NCBI GenBank assembly: GCA_903929195.1
Contig: CAIYTT010000085.1
Coordinates: 1 to 38,085 of the forward strand
From: an uncultured Bacteroidota bacterium
GTDB lineage: Bacteria; Bacteroidota; Bacteroidia; Chitinophagales; Chitinophagaceae
Direction of reading: 5' to 3'
Length of the DNA stretch: 38,085 nt
Part shown: positions 3,501-37,300 of the stretch, piece by piece
How the letters are laid out: each line of letters starts with the position of its first letter
Numbering within the stretch: position 1 is the stretch's first letter
The notes under the pieces: generated by a model
Told to the model about the DNA's origin: nothing
Seen by the model: the letters and a program-made list of their open reading frames with translations, nothing else
The model's database searches: none
Position numbers and translations under genes: made by a program

Positions 3501-3720
3501 TAAATGTGCCTGAAATTCTTTTGCCAATTTCTGTTGTCTTGTTTTCATATATGTAACTGATGGCAAAGAATAGGTATTGTACTGAAATTTGCTTAAAATC
3601 ATAATATATATAATCAATCAAAATAAACTATTTATCAGTCTAATAATACTGCTTTTATAAGGAAATGAGTGAACTTTGCATTTTATTTCTTCCGGAATAA
3701 AGTATAAAAAGGGTTATTAA

Positions 3721-6210
3721 ATGAATAGCATAGAGCAAATTAGAATATGGTGTAACGGTGCATGGTTACATAAAAGTGCCGAACATACACTTATTGATGC
3801 TTTGGTAATAGACAGCAGGAGCATTGCAGATGCAAGTCATTCTTTATTTATTGCACTAAAAACAAAATTAAGAGACGGACATTCTTTTATATTGAATGCA
3901 TATACTAAAGGCGTTAGAAATTTTATTGTTTCTAAAACAATAGACAGTACCCAATTTCCGGATGCAAATATTTTGCTTGTAGATGATACATTGCAAGCCC
4001 TACAAAAAATGACTTCTGCATATAGAGAATTATTTACAATGCCCGTAATTGGTATTACAGGCAGTAATGGCAAAACGGTAGTAAAAGAGTGGTTATATCA
4101 ATTACTTGGCAGCAATTATAATATAATTAGAAGCCCTAAAAGTTATAATTCACAAATAGGGGTTCCTTTATCGGTATGGCAATTAAATAAGGAATGTAAT
4201 TTAGGCATTTTTGAAGCCGGTATATCGCAAACACGAGAAATGCAAAAATTAGAGCCAATTATAAAACCGGATATTGGCATCTTTACAAATATCGGCGAAG
4301 CTCACAATGAAGGTTTTTTAGACCTGAAAGAAAAAATAGTTGAAAAAATACAATTATTCCGAAATGCCCATACCCTCATTTATTGCAGCGATTACGATGT
4401 ACTGAACGAATGTGTAGAATCGTTTTTTATAAATAGCAATACTATAAAATTATTTAAATGGTCTAAAAAACAAGCTGCTGATTTACATATAGTACATGTT
4501 GATAAACAAAGCAATAGCACGTTTATTTCTGCACATTATAATGATACTGAAATTAATATAACGATTCCATTTAATGACGATGCTTCAATAGAAAATGCTA
4601 TCAATTGTTGGTGCGTAATGTTGTTGCTTAAATTTAAAATGGAGGATATACGAATACACTTTTTGCAATTGCAACCCGTGTCTATGCGTATGGAATTGAA
4701 GCAGGGAATTAATGATTGTAGTGTAATTAATGATGTATATAATTCAGACCTTACCTCTTTACAAATAGCACTTCATTTTTTAGAACAACAAAAACAACAC
4801 AGTAAAAATACGGTCATATTGTCTGATTTGTTGCAAGTTGGTAAACAAGATTCAGAACTGTATTTAGAAGTAAGTCAATTGATTAATAGGCCTCATATCA
4901 ATAGATTTATTGGTATTGGGAAGGCATTGTATAAGAATAAATCTGTTTTTGCTACCAATCTTAAAATGAAGTGTGTATTTTATAAATCAACAGACGATTT
5001 TCTTAAAAATTTTTATAAACATACTTTCGAGAAAGAGACGATATTATTAAAAGGTGCAAGAATATTTGAATTTGAGAAAATAGGTCTTTTATTAGAGCAG
5101 AAAGTACACCAAACTGTTATGTCGGTAAATCTTTCTAATATACGTCATAATCTTAATGTTTTTAGGGCTCAATTGGCTGAAGGTGTAAAAACAATGGCAA
5201 TGGTTAAAGCGTTTGCTTATGGCAGTGGCAGTTTCGAAATAGCCGGCTTATTGCAAAATGCAGGTGTTAATTATCTTACCGTTGCCTATACCGATGAGGG
5301 TATAGAACTGCGAAAAGCCGGTATAAATATGCCTATTATGGTTATGAGTCCTGATTCCGGTTCGTTTGATAGAATGATTAATTGGAATCTGGAACCGGAG
5401 TTGTTTAATTTTAAATCGTTAGATACATTTATAAAAATAGCACAGACTTTTAGAAAAACAGCTTATCAGGTGCATCTAAAATTAGATACGGGAATGCACC
5501 GCTTGGGTTTTGGAAATGAAGATATACAGGCATTAATAGAAAAAATTGCTGATTCGCCCGAAATAAATATTGCCAGTATTTTCAGCCATTTGGCAGCCAG
5601 TGAAGATGAAAAAGAAGATGTATATACAAAACAACAGGCTAAGCAATTTGATGAAATGAGTAAAAAAATAATTGCTACATTAAACTATATGCCAATATTA
5701 CATTTATGTAATTCGGCAGCGGTAATGCGTTTCGCATCGTTGCATTACAATATGGTGAGGTTGGGCATTGGTCTGTATGGTATTAGCAGCAACATACAAG
5801 TACAAAAAAATCTAAAGCCTATTAATGAACTTAAAACAACTATTGCACAAATAAAAAATATAAAAAAAGGTGAAAACATTGGTTACGGACATCATACAAT
5901 AGCCACAAAAGCTATAAGGATAGCAACCATTTCTATTGGTTATGCCGATGGGTACTTACGTAATTTAGGCAACGGAAATGCATGGGTTCTGATACATAAT
6001 AAACCCGCATACACAATAGGTTCTATTTGTATGGATATGTGCATGGTAGATATTTCGGATATACCGGAAGCAAAAGAGGGTGATGAGGTTTTAGTTTTTG
6101 GCATCTCACTACCTATTAACCTCTTGGCTCAATGGGCAAAAACAATACCTTACGAAATAATGACTGGCATTTCTCAACGTGTAAAACGAGTATATGTAAA
6201 CGAAGAATAA
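3721..6210 (+). CDS. Bifunctional UDP-N-acetylmuramoyl-tripeptide:D-Ala-D-Ala ligase / alanine racemase
   Basis: This 829-residue protein joins two peptidoglycan enzymes. Residues 1 to about 455 are MurF-like: the ATP loop GITGSNGKT is at 111-119, followed by the Mur ligase central and C-terminal domains. Residues from about 465 on are a fold-type III alanine racemase: K496 in MVKAFAYG binds PLP, Y722 in the GYGHH segment matches the second catalytic base (Tyr265 in Geobacillus), and Y741 lies in GYADG. It would convert L-Ala to D-Ala and ligate D-Ala-D-Ala to the UDP-MurNAc-tripeptide in the cytoplasm. This fusion is known across Bacteroidota. The ATG at 3721 follows an in-frame TAA directly. 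A weak -7-like GAACTTTG lies at 3671-3678. The gene ends 11 bp from the convergent ATPase gene. Confidence 0.95.
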   Translation: MNSIEQIRIWCNGAWLHKSAEHTLIDALVIDSRSIADASHSLFIALKTKLRDGHSFILNAYTKGVRNFIVSKTIDSTQFPDANILLVDDTLQALQKMTSAYRELFTMPVIGITGSNGKTVVKEWLYQLLGSNYNIIRSPKSYNSQIGVPLSVWQLNKECNLGIFEAGISQTREMQKLEPIIKPDIGIFTNIGEAHNEGFLDLKEKIVEKIQLFRNAHTLIYCSDYDVLNECVESFFINSNTIKLFKWSKKQAADLHIVHVDKQSNSTFISAHYNDTEINITIPFNDDASIENAINCWCVMLLLKFKMEDIRIHFLQLQPVSMRMELKQGINDCSVINDVYNSDLTSLQIALHFLEQQKQHSKNTVILSDLLQVGKQDSELYLEVSQLINRPHINRFIGIGKALYKNKSVFATNLKMKCVFYKSTDDFLKNFYKHTFEKETILLKGARIFEFEKIGLLLEQKVHQTVMSVNLSNIRHNLNVFRAQLAEGVKTMAMVKAFAYGSGSFEIAGLLQNAGVNYLTVAYTDEGIELRKAGINMPIMVMSPDSGSFDRMINWNLEPELFNFKSLDTFIKIAQTFRKTAYQVHLKLDTGMHRLGFGNEDIQALIEKIADSPEINIASIFSHLAASEDEKEDVYTKQQAKQFDEMSKKIIATLNYMPILHLCNSAAVMRFASLHYNMVRLGIGLYGISSNIQVQKNLKPINELKTTIAQIKNIKKGENIGYGHHTIATKAIRIATISIGYADGYLRNLGNGNAWVLIHNKPAYTIGSICMDMCMVDISDIPEAKEGDEVLVFGISLPINLLAQWAKTIPYEIMTGISQRVKRVYVNEE

Positions 6211-16339: not shown

Positions 16340-17764
16340 TTAGCAATCACTTAAACTGATAGGTATTTGCACCGCAAGCCCACCCTCTGCTGTTTCTTTA
16401 TATTTATGGTTCATGTCTAATGCAGTCTCCCACATTGTTTTTACAACGTCATCAAGAGTAATTCTTGCATTTTCGGGGTTACTATGTAGTGCCAATTGTG
16501 CTGCTGTAATAGCTTTTATTGCACCCATTGTGTTTCTTTCTATGCAAGGCACTTGCACTAAACCTGCAACCGGGTCGCAGGTTAGCCCTAAATGATGTTC
16601 CATAGCTATTTCGGCAGCCATAAGACATTGCCTTACACTGCCACCCAAAACAGAGGTAAGTCCGGCAGCAGCCATAGAAGAGGAGACACCTATTTCAGCT
16701 TGACAGCCACCCATTGCAGCAGATAAAGTTGCACCTTTTTTAAATATACTGCCAATTTCGGATGCTGTTAAAAGAAACTTGATTATTTTTTCATCTTCAT
16801 AACCATCGCAAAAAGAAATAAAATATTGTAAAACGGCAGGTACAACCCCAGCAGCACCATTGGTAGGTGCAGTTACAACTCTGCTGAAAGACGCATTTTC
16901 TTCATTAACTGCTAAGGCAAAACAACTAACCCAATCAAGTGTGGTTTTAAAAGAATTACCGGTATTGTGAATTATTTTGCACCACTCCTCATAATTATTA
17001 TATACAGTACCTTCAGTATATTTTTGATTTAATTCGGCAGCACGACGTGTTACATTTAAGCCACCCGGTAATATACCAGAAATATGCACCCCTCTGTAAA
17101 TGCAATTACGCATTGCGTCATAAATTTTTAATACTCCTTGCTTTGTTTCATCAATACTTCGCCAAGCTTTTTCGTTTTCCATAACAACATCTGCAATGTC
17201 CAATCCTGATTTTTCACAAGCATTCAATAGGTCTATTTCATTTTCAATCGGATAGGGTAGTACTACATTATGGCTACCATGCCCATCTTCACCTTCTTTT
17301 ACTACAAAACCGCCGCCAATAGAATAAAACGTTTCTGCAATCTCGTCTCCATTTTTTAACTGTGCTAAAAAAGTTAATGCATTCGGATGAAATGGCAAAC
17401 TTTCAGTATATAAAAAGACAATGTCGGTATCTGTATTGAACTTAATTTCTTTTTGTTTGTTGAGTATTATTTTATTTGTGTTTTGTATATGCTCAATACT
17501 TAAGGTTATTTTATTCACATCGAAGGTTACCGGGTCTTCGCCACATAAACCTAATATTACAGCAACATCAGTACCATGTCCTTTACCTGTTTTTGCCAAA
17601 GATCCATATAGTAATATTTTTACACTATTAACTGTTTCAAATCCTTTAGAATTTAAAGTATCTAAAAAACGTAATGCAGCCTTCCACGGACCTAATGTAT
17701 GCGAACTACTTGGTCCAATTCCTATTTTAAAAATATCAAATACTGAAATACTTTCTTGTTTCAT
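16340..17764 (-). CDS. sdaA: L-serine ammonia-lyase (single-chain, iron-sulfur type)
   Basis: This 474-residue enzyme deaminates L-serine to pyruvate and ammonia using a [4Fe-4S] cluster. It carries the fused beta and alpha domains of single-chain (type 2) enzymes. The beta domain begins [19 protein letters not shown]. The cluster cysteines are C354 (GGCQAEIG), C396 (LTCDP) and C407 (QVPC), with the same spacings of 42 and 11 as C343, C385 and C396 of the Legionella enzyme. The final residue is cysteine (C474), the counterpart of the Legionella C-terminal Cys that inserts into the active site as a tail-in-mouth ligand. The promoter box is TACCTTTG at 17803-17810. It stands alone between convergent and same-strand neighbours. 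Confidence 0.95.
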
Positions 17765-31754: not shown

Positions 31755-32411
31755 TTGCATAATTCAAAATTGAATCTTGCAGATATTCGTAAAGAGTATA
31801 TGCTATCGGAATTAGATGAAGAAATTGTAGGCGAAGAACCTCTTTCTTTTTTTAATACTTGGTTTCTTGAAGCTGAAAAGGCGGAGATAACCGATGTAAA
31901 TGCAATGACATTAGCCACGGTTGATGCCTTAAATACGCCACATGCTCGCACCGTATTATTGAAAGAATTGGATGATGCCGGGTTTGTTTTTTATACTAAT
32001 TACCTAAGTGCTAAAGGTAATGAAATGAAAAGTAACGTAAATGTGGCTCTTCTTTTTTATTGGAAAGAATTAGAAAGACAAGTTAGGATTGAGGGTACGG
32101 TAGAAAAAGTTACAGATATAGTTAGTGATACTTATTTCAATTCGAGACCGGAGGGTAGTAAATTAGGTGCATGGTCATCGCCACAAAGTAGTGTTATACC
32201 TCACAGAAAAATAATTGAGACTAATTATGCCAAATATGCCGAAGAGTTTTCTAATTTAGATATTCCTCGTCCACCACATTGGGGCGGTTATAGAGTAATA
32301 CCTAAGAGTATTGAGTTTTGGCAAGGTAGGGCTAACCGTATGCATGATAGAATCTTATTTACATTTGACTCTGAGGATAAAAAGTGGTATAAATATAGAC
32401 TTGCACCTTAA
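31755..32411 (+). CDS. pdxH: Pyridoxamine 5'-phosphate oxidase
   Basis: This 218-residue FMN enzyme oxidises pyridoxine/pyridoxamine 5'-phosphate to PLP, the cofactor used, for example, by the alanine racemase domain in this window. Family motifs in order are IRKEY near the N-terminus, ARTVLLKELDDAGFVFYTNY (FMN phosphate region), LERQVRIEGTVEK, RPEGSKLGAWSSPQSS, WGGYRVIPKSIEFWQG and HDRI, ending KYRLAP as in E. coli PdxH. The start is TTG at 31755: there is no ATG between the preceding in-frame stop and this codon, and the next ATG (31800) would lose the conserved IRKEY segment. It begins 4 bp after the small membrane ORF. Confidence 0.95.
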   Translation: MHNSKLNLADIRKEYMLSELDEEIVGEEPLSFFNTWFLEAEKAEITDVNAMTLATVDALNTPHARTVLLKELDDAGFVFYTNYLSAKGNEMKSNVNVALLFYWKELERQVRIEGTVEKVTDIVSDTYFNSRPEGSKLGAWSSPQSSVIPHRKIIETNYAKYAEEFSNLDIPRPPHWGGYRVIPKSIEFWQGRANRMHDRILFTFDSEDKKWYKYRLAP

Positions 32412-32593
32412 AAATATTAATTTTATTTAGTACGCTACTTGGGTTTTATTTATTTTATATAAATATATCAGTCATCCAGTTTGCAATACATATGCCTTAT
32501 TAGGACGTATGTAACACTTATATATAGGTGTTTGTGCTGTCTATTTATAAAATATAAAAAACATATCCAAGCCTATTTTTTATAAATCAAAGA

Positions 32594-32614
32594 AGCAATC
32601 TCAAAGAGATTGCT
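32594..32614 (-). terminator. Hairpin downstream of rpsT
   Basis: AGCAATCTC (32594-32602) and GAGATTGCT (32606-32614) form a perfect 9-bp stem with a 3-nt loop, 35 bp beyond the rpsT stop and in the interval between convergent pdxH and rpsT. On the minus strand it is followed by a T-rich stretch. Confidence 0.75.
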
Positions 32615-32648
32615 AAAAAAATAAAATTATTAAATTTTATAGAAAATA

Positions 32649-32903
32649 TTAAGCTAAAGCATTAATTCTTTTTAAGATACCTGATTTAAGATTACCGGCT
32701 TTATTTTTATGTATTACATTTCTTTTAGCCAATTTGTCTATCATTGATATAACGTTACTTAATTTCTCTTCTGCTTCTGCTTTATTTTCAATAGCTAATA
32801 ATGTACGAATTGCATTACGTGTAGTTCTGCCATAATAACGGTTTCTCTCGCGGCGTGTTTCGCTCTGACGGACATCTTTTTTGGTAGCTTTATGATTTGC
32901 CAT
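32649..32903 (-). CDS. rpsT: 30S ribosomal protein bS20
   Basis: This 84-residue basic protein is ribosomal protein S20, which binds 16S rRNA early in 30S assembly. Typical parts are MANHKATKKDVRQSETRRER at the start, the RNA-binding helix with RNAIRTLL, and the end HKNKAGNLKSGILKRINALA. The length is standard for the family. It is monocistronic: an exact consensus promoter lies at 32927-32957 and a perfect hairpin follows the gene. In E. coli the gene is autoregulated at translation; the 23-nt leader here gives no visible equivalent. Confidence 0.97.
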   Translation of the reverse strand: MANHKATKKDVRQSETRRERNRYYGRTTRNAIRTLLAIENKAEAEEKLSNVISMIDKLAKRNVIHKNKAGNLKSGILKRINALA

Positions 32904-32926
32904 TAATTTACTTTTTTTAAGGACTG

Positions 32927-32957
32927 CAAAGGTATATAAAAATTCTCATCCAACAAA
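32927..32957 (-). promoter_or_regulatory. Consensus promoter of rpsT
   Basis: On the minus strand TTTTG (ending at 32954), a 19-bp spacer and TACCTTTG (32927-32934) match the Bacteroidota consensus exactly. The ATG at 32903 is 23 bp downstream. Confidence 0.78.
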
Positions 32958-33125
32958 AATATTTTTTTATTGGATTCTGTTGCAAAGGTATTTTTTATTG
33001 ATATAAAAACAACAAATTTATTTTTTATAATGCTATTACTGACCCATTTTTTTTGTTTCTGTAATAAATTTTGATTAAATACTTTATTTAACAACAAAGA
33101 ACATAAAGTAAATGACAAAGAACAT

Positions 33126-33133
33126 TACTTTTG
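33126..33133 (+). promoter_or_regulatory. -7 element of the transaldolase-CBS gene
   Basis: TACTTTTG matches TAnnTTTG exactly, 41 bp before the ATG at 33175. No ideal -33 TTG is present. Confidence 0.5.
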
Positions 33134-33174
33134 CTACATACTTTTACTATTAAATTAAATAAAAAATAATTAAA

Positions 33175-34185
33175 ATGGAATTATATCTTGATTCAGCCAA
33201 TATTAAAGAAATTGAAGAAGGCTTTAAATTGGGTTTTCTTACAGGTTTAACTACCACACCTACCTTTATGCAACGCGAAGGCATAACAGATATAGACGGT
33301 ATGATAGTTAGATTATCTAAAATAGCACCCATTTTACAAATTGAAGCTTTGGGCAATACTGCAGAAGATGTTGTAAAGGAAGCACGCCGCCAATTAGATT
33401 TAGGTCTTGACCCTAAGTGTACCGTATTTAAAATACCGGTATCTTTAGAGGGTGTACGTGCCTGTAATTTATTGCGTAAAGAAGGTTTGCTTGTAAATGT
33501 ACATTTAGTTTATACGTTGCAACAAGCCTATATGGCTATGCAAGCAGGTGCAACTTATGTATGCCCATTGGTGGGGCGTTTGCAAGACCAAGGACACGAT
33601 GCTTTAGCTTTGGTGGAGCAATGTGTAACTGCAGTAAATTACTATGGTTACAATACAAAAATTATGTTTAGCTCTGTACGTAATTCCGAACATGTGCGTA
33701 ATGCTATTAATTTAGGTGTACATACTATTACAGTACCTCTTAAAATACTAAAAGGCTTAACAGACAATAATTTTACAACATTAGGTACAGAGCAATTTTT
33801 AAGCGATACCCGCTTAATGACTGTAAAAGTAAAGGATGCAATAAATAATATTAATCCTGTTGTAATTGCATCTACTAATATAAAAGATGCTATTGTTAAA
33901 ATGACTGAATATGGTTTTGGCTCTATTACTGTAGTAAATGCCGATGGTAGTATAAAAGGAGTATTTACAGATGGTGATTTACGTAGATTAATACAAAAGG
34001 GTGGCGAAATTTTAAATTCTAATCTTAATGACCATGAATTTAAAACACCTATTAGTATTGATGCCAATGCATTATTAAATGAGGCATCTATTATCTTTAA
34101 GAAAACAAATGTTGATACCATATTGGTAACTGAAAACGGGTTACCAGTTGGAATGTTAGATATTCAAGATTTAAAAAATGATTAA
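33175..34185 (+). CDS. Transaldolase/fructose-6-phosphate aldolase-like domain fused to a CBS pair
   Basis: This is a 336-residue cytoplasmic protein. Residues 1 to about 215 align with the small transaldolase (FSA/TalC) family: MELYLDSAN start with D6, the Schiff-base lysine in FKIPVSLEG (K85 of FSA), and AGATYVCPLVGR. The motif usually written GVTTNPS reads GLTTTPT here, so the conserved active-site asparagine (N28 in FSA) is replaced. Residues 220-336 form two CBS motifs; GVFTDGDLRRLIQKG and VGMLDIQDL closely resemble the CBS pair of KdsD arabinose-5-phosphate isomerase. The fusion implies allosteric control of a sugar-phosphate lyase or aldolase by a nucleotide or sugar ligand. The activity is uncertain. 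It stands alone with its own promoter. Confidence 0.85.
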   Translation: MELYLDSANIKEIEEGFKLGFLTGLTTTPTFMQREGITDIDGMIVRLSKIAPILQIEALGNTAEDVVKEARRQLDLGLDPKCTVFKIPVSLEGVRACNLLRKEGLLVNVHLVYTLQQAYMAMQAGATYVCPLVGRLQDQGHDALALVEQCVTAVNYYGYNTKIMFSSVRNSEHVRNAINLGVHTITVPLKILKGLTDNNFTTLGTEQFLSDTRLMTVKVKDAINNINPVVIASTNIKDAIVKMTEYGFGSITVVNADGSIKGVFTDGDLRRLIQKGGEILNSNLNDHEFKTPISIDANALLNEASIIFKKTNVDTILVTENGLPVGMLDIQDLKND

Positions 34186-34254
34186 TTAGTACGTTTGTTG
34201 ATGTTTAATTAAATCAACTTGGCATTAATATCATTAATGCATCAAAAGTGACTA

Positions 34255-34297
34255 TTATATCAATTAGATATTTATATAAAATGTCTAATTGATATAA
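34255..34297. terminator. 14-bp stem-loop between convergent genes
   Basis: Perfect 14-bp arms (34255-34268 and 34284-34297; core ATATCAATTAGA) enclose a 15-nt loop, between the stops of the transaldolase-CBS gene (34185) and the minus-strand TPR lipoprotein gene (34394). It is a likely bidirectional terminator or 3' end element; there is no T-run. Confidence 0.55.
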
Positions 34298-34393
34298 ATG
34301 TCGTTTAGCTTAATAAAATAAATGCTATAGATGGTGCCATAAAACAGCATACTTTTTGTTTAGCCACCTACTTTTTATTAATTAAGTATTGGT

Positions 34394-37300
34394 TTATTTG
34401 TAAGCAGTATTGTAAAAAGACAAATAAGGCAATAATTTTTTATCGGCAAATAATTTTTTGTAATTATTACTTGATATTATTAATGCTTGATATTCTTCCG
34501 GTTTATAATCGTGCAATACATCCGCAATTTTTAAGTCGTTCATGTATTTTTTTGCTGTATCTGCATTTGGGAATTTTTTTAATACTATTAATGTTTGTTG
34601 CATTCCATAGAAATCAATATTTATATCTAAAGCAGCATCCGGGTATTTCGTTTTATTAAACGTGGTTAAATTTTGTTTTAAAACACCCGTTCTGCCATCT
34701 AAGCCGGGCAAAACTACAATACAAATATGCTCATCGGCAGGTTTATACGCATAAAAAGAAGGAATATCACTTTTAGGTACTTTTTTTACAGAATCATTTT
34801 TAGCAATCATTTTATCTGTTTTGCCGTCTATTTTATTGTCTTTTTCTCCCGGAGGGGTTTCTTTATACCAAGCAGGGAAACCACTTTTGCGCACAACAGC
34901 AATATATTCTTTTACAGAATTAGACCAAGTACTAAGTGTATCGCCCGGGTATAGTTTGTTAAATTCTAAAAGAGTGGTATCGGCTTTATCATAGTTGCCG
35001 GCACCGGCATAAGCCATTGCTTCTAATATCTTAAATCGTTTGCTAAAAGTAAGATTGTCATATTGCTTTTTAGCAAGTTCTATACGCACCATTGCTTCTG
35101 TATATTGATGTTTCAAAACCATATTATAGGTTTCCTCATAAAATTCTGCAACTTTAACTGTAGAATTCTGTGCTTCCGATTTATTGTTATACTTAGGTCT
35201 TAATATATCCGCATATACCGATTTCGGGAACTTATCTAATAATTGGTCGCTGTAGGTTTGGGCTTTTGCTAATTGATTTTGTGCAAGTGCTATTTGGTAT
35301 CTTAAATATAATTCTTCTTCTTTTTGATTATGATTCGGGAATTTTTTATCTAATAAATCAAGGGTAGTACTTGCTTGCACATAATCTTCCAATTGTTTAA
35401 AATAAGCTTTAGCTAATTGTATATATGCTTTTTGCACTGTTTTGTTCGATATATCTTTTTGGTCCTGTTTATTAGGTATTTTACTTAATAAATATTCTTC
35501 GCTTGGCAAGCCATTATCTTCTGCCGGCGTATTACCAACTGTTTCTTCATTATCATCGGGCTTAGTGCTTACAATATTTTGGTTAGTTGCATGTCGCCAA
35601 TTATCAGTAAGTGGGCGGTTACCCCATTTACGCTTAAATTCTGCACTACCTTGTTGTATTTGTGTTGGGCTTGAAAAATACCAATTGCTTGCTTCTGTAT
35701 TATCGTTTGCCGGCTCTGCTACTGATATTGTATTGCCTGCTAGCATAGCATTATCTATACTGTCTTGTATTATTTGTTGCAAATAGTGTAAATACTTACG
35801 TACGGCAGCCGTTTGTTCTTTTTTACTTAATTGTGCCAAAGCCATTAAGCTGTCTTGGTCATGTATGATATTTGTAGGGCCTACAATTTCATTTAAAACT
35901 TTTCCTCTTTGTATAGAAGCTAAACCGGTTGTGTCTTTAGAGCTACCGGTAGCATATTTTGCGGCACTGTCATACGCATTTTTTGCAACCGGATATTTTG
36001 CAGCACTATAATAAGCATCGCCTAAAGCTGCAAAAGATAGAGCCTTTTGTTTTTTACTTGCTTTTGGTGTACTTATGCTTTTATTTAAATATTTAATGGC
36101 GTCGTCTGTTTTGCCCGCTTTTATTGCTATTTTACCCAAAACATAATATACTTGGTCGTAGTAATTTACATATTTAGCATCATTAAGCACTTTTTTAAGT
36201 GGTCGCATTGCTTCTTCTACATCATTACCTGCCATTAAGGCATTATAAGCAATATTTTTTCTGGCATAAAAATCCATTTCTATTTTAGGGAAATAACTTA
36301 AATTTTTTTCGTAATTTGTTATTGCGGTTGCAAAATCTCCTCTGTTTTGTGCCAGTTGACCATTTAGAAATGCGGCTCTCATTTTTAAATAATCCGGCAA
36401 ATAACCATCTTCAATAACAATATCCAATTGTTTTGATGCCTCTTCATAATTTTGGTTTGCCAAATATGCAAATGCTTTTTCAACGGCTAAACGACCAACT
36501 AAATCATCGGGTAGGTTAGGGTCTCCTTCTAATAAAGAAATAACCATTTCTGCATTTTCAATTTTTTTTGATTCTGTATAGGTTCGAGCAAGCCATAAAA
36601 TAGCTTCATTATGCACTGACTTATGCCTTAGAAAATCAAGTTTTGATTTTTGTTCTTCTTCTAAAATTGATGGCTGTTCTTTAGATTTATTGCCATTGCC
36701 CGAACTAAAAGTTTTAGGAGCATCTTTCTTTTTCTGCTCCTCATCGCTACTTATGATATAACGAAAAGAGGTAGCAGCATTTTCATATCTCCCTTTGTAG
36801 TAATAAGCTTCACCCATTAATAGGAACATATCATTAGCCCATTTTACACGTGGGTCATGTATTTGCAACCCTATCGATGCTTTTCTTACTATGCTGTCCA
36901 TATCCGAAGATAATAATGCCGAGTCTTTATTTGGGTCAAATGGGTATAAGCCAATTAATGAATCTAAATTTTCTTTTTTCGTTCGTTGCATATTTACCAA
37001 TGCATCTTCCATTTTCTTATTGGCATTATAATAATAATTATAATGGGTAAAGGCATTTTGAACTAATCGCCGCTGTGGCGACCACTTTTTTTTCAACATG
37101 GATTTATTGGTCCACTGCTCTCGTTTTGTTTTAAATTTAATTTCTAATTTCAGTTTTAGTTCCTCTTGTTTTTTCTTTTCTTTTGCTTTTGCCAATCGTT
37201 CTTTTTCAGCTTTTACTTTTGCCAAGCTGTCTGTTTTTATTTTACGTACCATTTTTACACTGTCCATATATTTGGTACGCACTAGTTTAGTACTATCTTG

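Follow-up and report, generated by a model that had tools for sequence, protein, structure and literature searches.

KdsA requires an aldose phosphate, and CBS pairs of the KdsD type are thought to sense CMP-Kdo, which we take to be the ligand in structure 4o9k. The isomerases that make arabinose 5-phosphate (A5P), namely KdsD, KpsF and GutQ, are described as catalysing the first committed step of Kdo synthesis, and Escherichia coli lacking both kdsD and gutQ as nonviable (PMC10448790). In Shewanella, 8-amino-Kdo (Kdo8N) is reached through KdnA and KdnB, the role of the latter being described in PMC5125639. Aldolases have been led to A5P in another setting. According to PMC9947464 (see also PMC8208507), FsaA of E. 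coli forms only A5P from glycolaldehyde and glyceraldehyde 3-phosphate (G3P), and the TalB variant F178Y forms both A5P and R5P from the same two compounds.

The locus presented here brings together parts of these systems. The window, i.e. the whole 38,085-nucleotide stretch analysed, carries at 33175..34185 (+ strand) a single unbroken frame of 336 aa in which an FSA/TAL-type aldolase barrel is joined to a KdsD-type CBS pair. This fusion is proposed to be the A5P-supplying enzyme of a Kdo/8-amino-Kdo operon, displacing the SIS-domain isomerase KdsD, a role to which a probability of about 0.85 is assigned. Like TalC-type transaldolases and FSA (PF00923; TIGR00875), the fusion has the barrel fold, Asp6, Glu57, Lys86, Asn108, Ser167 and both arginines, but it adds the CBS pair and a fixed set of T28, H110, C130 and L132, and shares no more than 40% identity with any of the 24 canonical paralogues set against it. 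With KdsD/KpsF/GutQ it has in common the type of CBS pair and, as proposed, the product and the pathway slot, and it occurs mostly where KdsD is missing; however, it has no SIS domain and its catalytic domain is unrelated. Its operon carries close homologues of KdnA and KdnB of the Shewanella Kdo8N pathway; here a single operon unites the kdn genes with kdsA, the fusion, a kdsC-like gene and kdsB, and at times also with waaA. Finally, the fold and the reaction proposed would be those of FsaA in the glycolaldehyde assimilation pathway (PMC9947464), where the activity is one put to use by engineers, whereas a dedicated and regulated natural enzyme is proposed here.

If this proposal is true, an unrelated enzyme in the KdsD slot would explain LPS synthesis without KdsD in some Bacteroidota, would change how these genes, which now score as TAL/FSA, are annotated, and would matter for KdsD as a drug target. 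Should the fusion turn out to be an aldolase that binds glycolaldehyde well, it would further match the type of A5P aldolase that pathway engineers name as a means of improving their route (PMC9947464).

The fusion gene and its two domains

The aldolase domain (residues 1-214; 33175..33816, +) is matched by Pfam TAL_FSA (PF00923) over residues 3-202 with E 3.2e-34, and its 119 bits against a gathering score of 27 bits place it in the TAL/FSA superfamily; against the fructose-6-phosphate aldolase equivalog TIGR00875 it reaches 163.4 bits, under the curated cut-off of 245.95. The AlphaFold2 model of the fusion, computed from an alignment of 50 rows (the window protein, 32 other fusions sharing less than 86% identity with one another, and 17 TAL rows out of 24), has a mean pLDDT of 92 and a pTM of 0.70. 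In VIA-align comparisons, the barrel lies nearest to TalC-type transaldolases (3s0c; Z 30.2, rmsd 1.8, 215 residues aligned), with a somewhat poorer match to E. coli FSA (1l6w; Z 28.2, rmsd 2.4, 216 residues), and its fold matches include transaldolases with Schiff bases named in their structure titles.

The C-terminal part (residues 215-336; 33817..34182, +) gives two Pfam CBS stretches (PF00571; E 2.4e-13) and contains GVFTDGDLRR. Its best solved relatives by sequence are the KdsD CBS pairs 4o9k, 3k2v and 3fna; when the pair was modelled alone (14 fusions in the alignment; pLDDT 86), the first five Foldseek rows were again KdsD CBS pairs, from the same three proteins. The likeness to KdsD seen in the sequence-only reading, which had been made from the letters and their translations, thus extends to the fold, and the uninterrupted aldolase–CBS frame that it described stands as well. 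TDGDLRR is common to the fusion CBS pair and the KdsD proteins of the family, at an identity of 26-38%. Against TIGR00393 (KdsD/KpsF) the fusion scores 68.4 bits (cut-off 203.7) in a match that covers profile positions 136-259 only, and no SIS domain is found among the Pfam matches of the protein. Feedback by CMP-Kdo or CMP-Kdo8N may act through this pair.

The same full-length frame, without internal stops, recurs in 32/294 genomes of the family (13/92 genera), and a single long fusion ORF is present at every one of the best 80 of 491 matching stretches in a public genome collection, so that a chance read-through can be set aside. In a phylum-wide draw the fusion was found in 7/392 genomes, three of the seven lying outside the family, and a search of a plasmid collection (E<=1e-30) returned one record, an ordinary Enterococcus FSA. 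No paper on an aldolase–CBS fusion, or on a natural Kdo pathway that employs an aldolase, came up in the open-access literature searched, description elsewhere being possible. The parts and the chemistry are of known kinds; it is their combination in the KdsD slot that was not found there. One of the matching loci (L118, JANLJF010000062.1) is titled Azovibrio restrictus and has a gene order typical of Chitinophagaceae loci; it probably represents a mislabelled or contaminated MAG.

Residues of the pocket

Pocket residues were compared between 86 distinct fusions (from 120 long fusion ORFs, some genomes being repeated) and 24 distinct single-domain TAL paralogues. D6, T26, E57, K86, N108, R135, S167 and R169 are common to all 86 and all 24. 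They include Lys86 (33430..33432, +), located within FKIPVS and, by homology, the putative Schiff-base-forming residue, as well as Glu57 (33343..33345, +), presumably an acid/base residue of the transaldolase type, and the two arginines presumed to form the phosphate site, Arg135 (33577..33579, +) and Arg169 (33679..33681, +). Four other positions are fixed in each group yet different between them (86/86 versus 24/24): Thr28 (33256..33258, +), in the motif GLTTTPT, where relatives carry the Asn of TTNPS; His110 (33502..33504, +) in place of Thr; Cys130 (33562..33564, +) in place of Ser; and Leu132 in place of Phe. In other words, the canonical TalC pocket set of Asn28, Thr110, Ser130 and Phe132 is absent from 86/86 fusions. 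Over the whole barrel, 25 columns are fixed but different between fusions and TAL (including one where TAL has a gap), with identities of at most 39.5% between the two groups, at least 68.5% among fusions and at least 63.3% among TALs.

Because these residues, the unusual ones included, are invariant in 86/86 fusions, the active site reads as conserved but re-shaped, and not as decayed. The replacement of TTNPS by TTTPT and the lysine in FKIPVS had both been seen from the sequence alone. The loss of the asparagine belongs to a group of fixed changes, with T110H, S130C and F132L, and does not indicate decay. A regulatory protein devoid of catalysis, one of the two options of that reading, is disfavoured by the invariance of Lys86 and of the other pocket residues. 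The other option of that reading, a ligand-regulated aldolase with changed specificity, fits overall, the ligand regulation and the specificity itself being what we infer.

In transaldolases, we take N28 and S130 to contact the donor hydroxyls, T110 to hold the catalytic water and the arginines to bind phosphate. With these roles, the changes would fall on the donor side and the phosphate end would be kept, which would suit an altered donor such as glycolaldehyde. At position 57 the fusion has the Glu of transaldolases, FSA having Gln there, and His110 and Cys130 presumably also differ from E. coli FsaA; the activity of FsaA is therefore not simply transferable to the fusion.

Distribution of the fusion and of KdsD

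The fusion and KdsD were searched in an identical set of 294 family genomes, each at least 90% complete. KdsD occurs in 258 of them and the fusion in the 32 mentioned above, with 29 genomes having the fusion only, 255 KdsD only, three both (G103, G140 and G229) and seven neither (G001, G107, G123, G153, G205, G239 and G275). The two enzymes are thus almost mutually exclusive in the family (Fisher p 3.7e-30, a value that overstates independence since the genomes are related). Given this relatedness, a fairer count comes from contrasts within genera, five of which (g11, g56, g57, g64 and g108) each hold fusion-only and KdsD-only species. That the fusion replaces KdsD is a new proposal and goes beyond the sequence-only reading, in which a link to Kdo metabolism was considered possible; this link is now strongly supported by the near-exclusive occurrence and by an operon with kdsA, kdsC-like and kdsB genes.

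The possibility that the fusion-only genomes conceal a KdsD, or an A5P isomerase made of the SIS domain alone, was considered and rejected: a relaxed search with a single KdsD/KpsF model (TIGR00393, E<=1) gave no match above the cut-off in any of 39 genomes (29 fusion-only, the seven with neither enzyme, and three fusion genomes outside the family). Among the matches listed, the strongest fall on the CBS region of this model, and the strongest in its SIS region has E 2.9e-5 over 56 positions.

Genes acting after A5P were retained. In 52 of the 294 genomes (32 with the fusion, seven with neither enzyme and 13 chosen KdsD-only), kdsA was found in 50/52 and kdsB in 50/52, only G001 and G123 being without them; both genes are present in 32/32 fusion genomes, with the kdsA of G027 in broken frames. 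Moreover, waaA is present in 39/39 of the family genomes tested for it (32 fusion, seven neither). With kdsA, kdsB and waaA kept and KdsD missing, the fusion-only genomes seem to depend on A5P and yet lack any recognised enzyme for making it. However, five of the seven genomes with neither enzyme also have kdsA, kdsB and waaA, so that the absence of KdsD is by itself no proof of a substitute. These five (G107, G153, G205, G239 and G275, with completeness rated at 100% for G239 and 99% for G107) may owe this to gaps in their assemblies or to a further source of A5P.

The KdsA linked to the fusion (kdsA2) belongs to a clade of its own, with 41-49% identity to those ordinary KdsA proteins that were compared. 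It lies above the KDO8P synthase cut-off in 31/32 fusion genomes and has the same N-R-[S/T]-S stretch as ordinary KdsA, which we take to mark A5P use. Some genomes combine the two kinds. G103 and G229 have both kinds of kdsA together with both A5P enzymes, KdsD and the fusion. G250 has both kinds of kdsA but no kdsD, so that something else must feed its ordinary kdsA. In G140, kdsA2 is the sole kdsA and is accompanied by kdsD, which suggests that kdsA2 uses A5P. These intermediate genomes fit a stepwise replacement by a cassette in which the fusion and KdsD supply one common intermediate.

Operon and 8-amino-Kdo genes

Neighbourhoods were counted at 80 named loci, the best 80 of the 491 matching stretches, some of whose contigs end early. 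On the strand of the fusion, kdsA2 is found at 54 loci, the kdsC-like HAD gene at 62, kdsB2 at 56, kdnA and kdnB at 47 each, waaA at 22 and sdaA at 8; at least one of kdsA2, HAD and kdsB2 is present at 72/80 loci and none at 8/80. The full order, sdaA-waaA-kdnA-kdnB-kdsA2-fusion-HAD-kdsB2, is seen in Chitinophagaceae bacterium IBVUCB1 (L115). The operon HAD bears only a distant resemblance to KdsC (57.3 and 53.9 bits, with the cut-off at 208). Outside the family, the order is kdsB-kdsA-fusion at L181 (fusion at 61% identity) and kdsA-fusion-HAD at L179, and there is no kdsA beside the fusion at L180. In the window the fusion is on its own, a pdxH-like gene lying upstream of it and a gene for a large TPR-like protein downstream on the opposite strand (both named by eye), and in the window genome the pathway is split, with kdnA-kdnB-kdsA2 on contig C50, HAD-kdsB2 on C19 and the fusion on C85. 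Counting against the proposed role are the three genomes with both enzymes, the 8/80 loci devoid of kdsA2, HAD and kdsB2, and this separation of the fusion (C85) from kdsA2 (C50) in the window genome.

The product of operon kdnB is a close homologue of the 8-oxidase KdnB (5k8c; E 8.5e-124) and that of kdnA a close homologue of KdnA, the transaminase for 8-amino-Kdo (5k8b; E 5.8e-130). A KdnA of at least 72% identity occurs in 28/32 fusion genomes and, among the matches listed, in no other genome. A second KdnA clade, of at most 51% identity, is common in non-fusion genomes, and some KdnA match at E<=1e-100 is present in 191/294 genomes. The family thus has two kinds of KdnA, one bound to the fusion cassette and one common elsewhere, and 8-amino-Kdo could be widespread among its members. 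Since the fusion also occurs in genomes without KdnA (G023, G027, G133 and G170), it is not tied to the amino sugar.

Two loci deserve separate mention. At L124 (Chitinophagaceae bacterium LGM1), two other ORFs (3529-5020) lie between waaA and kdsA2, without kdnA or kdnB, so that the sugar-modification part of the cassette looks exchangeable. At L006 (G027:C29), the kdsA2 adjoining the fusion is broken into two parts that lie in different frames, through assembly error or decay.

Proposed reaction and alternatives

In the mechanism favoured here, Lys86 would form a Schiff base with glycolaldehyde, and the enamine would attack D-glyceraldehyde 3-phosphate bound by Arg135 and Arg169. The A5P released would pass to KdsA of the same pathway, which the KdsC-like phosphatase, KdnB and KdnA (where present), KdsB and WaaA would then complete, and the CBS pair would sense the end product, probably CMP-Kdo or CMP-Kdo8N, and damp the enzyme. 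A class I aldolase yields an aldose only with an aldehyde donor, and the stereochemistry of FSA leads from glycolaldehyde and D-G3P to D-arabinose 5-phosphate. Schiff-base aldol chemistry is favoured because FsaA makes A5P, because A5P is covalently bound in a transaldolase crystal (judging by the title of 3upb), and because an aldehyde donor gives an aldose. That the fusion supplies A5P, and does so by class I aldol chemistry on its lysine, whether with free glycolaldehyde or starting from R5P, is considered rather probable. The weak point of the aldol mechanism is the supply of glycolaldehyde: none of the seven annotated operon families is a glycolaldehyde-making enzyme, and the usual source, dihydroneopterin aldolase, seems too small for the demand of LPS. 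The wider idea of a second, non-isomerase route to A5P, in which a dedicated CBS-regulated aldolase acting by C–C bond formation has displaced KdsD several times in Bacteroidota within a transferable Kdo8N/LPS cassette, is given even odds.

The alternative that survives best, although it is unlikely, is a true isomerase in the KdsD slot, converting ribulose 5-phosphate (Ru5P) into A5P on the aldolase barrel through an enediol proton shift in which Glu57 and His110 would serve as acid/base, Lys86 providing charge only. Such an enzyme would be a drop-in for KdsD without any new metabolite, and the evidence for the role (operon, exclusion, kept kdsA and kdsB) holds equally for it. His110 is fixed and new in a pocket that also has Glu57 and Lys86, and triosephosphate isomerase employs a Lys/His/Glu set. 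It is the fold and the lysine that speak for the aldolase: the best 50 fold matches of each barrel search are transaldolases or aldolases, with no isomerase, and a conserved Schiff-base lysine with its neighbours is unnecessary for an enediol route. The enediol is assumed since an isomerase working through a lysine imine is chemically unlikely, an imine at C1 or C2 leaving a stable amine after the shift.

A sub-variant of the aldol chemistry, regarded as rather improbable, would turn R5P into A5P by retro-aldol and aldol steps at C2 on the lysine, C2 being the sole difference between the two sugars: R5P would be split into G3P and an enamine of glycolaldehyde that stays on the enzyme, and the two would be joined again in the opposite C2 configuration. 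It would remove the problem of glycolaldehyde supply, no free glycolaldehyde being involved, but no family member is known to catalyse this conversion. The formation of both A5P and R5P by TalB F178Y (PMC9947464) indicates that the fold can make both epimers, whereas FsaA is selective for A5P. The aldol, R5P and Ru5P readings all predict A5P and differ in the substrate.

It is also conceivable, with a low probability, that the product of the fusion is a different aldose phosphate, destined for a modified ulosonic acid, and that the fusion-type KdsA takes this compound and not A5P. The separate KdsA2 clade and the matching KdnA clade in 28 of the 32 fusion genomes (among the matches listed) would agree with this. 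Against it stand the KDO8P synthase scores of KdsA2 and its N-R-[S/T]-S stretch, the retention of waaA, the four fusion genomes without that KdnA, the pairing of KdsD with KdsA2 only in G140, and the FSA stereochemistry leading from glycolaldehyde and G3P to A5P.

An ordinary transaldolase or F6P aldolase, or a non-catalytic regulator, merely travelling with the Kdo operon is highly improbable despite transaldolases being the closest folds, since the window genome also encodes a separate canonical TAL (on which a housekeeping transaldolase was rejected), the pocket differs at fixed positions yet is invariant in 86/86 fusions (on which a degenerate or regulatory-only protein was rejected), and the loss of KdsD would be left unexplained.

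Sequence around the gene

An sdaA-like gene (L-serine ammonia-lyase), named by its likeness to L115:41-1465, lies in the window at 16340-17764 (- strand). In 8/80 relatives sdaA is on the strand of the fusion and close to one end of the operon, and the window copy is perhaps a trace of old synteny.

A promoter scan of 32400-34500 gave eight sigma-70-like sites versus a shuffle mean of 14.2, i.e. fewer than in shuffled sequence, and no terminator-like site was found on the + strand of the same interval. Upstream of the fusion, a direct repeat, ACAAAGAACAT, was noticed by eye at 33094-33104 and 33115-33125, its copies 21 bases apart. It is directly followed at 33126-33133 by TACTTTTG, which fits the -7 box of Bacteroidota, taken here to be TAnnTTTG; with this repeat and -7-like box upstream, the fusion gene may have its own promoter and operator.
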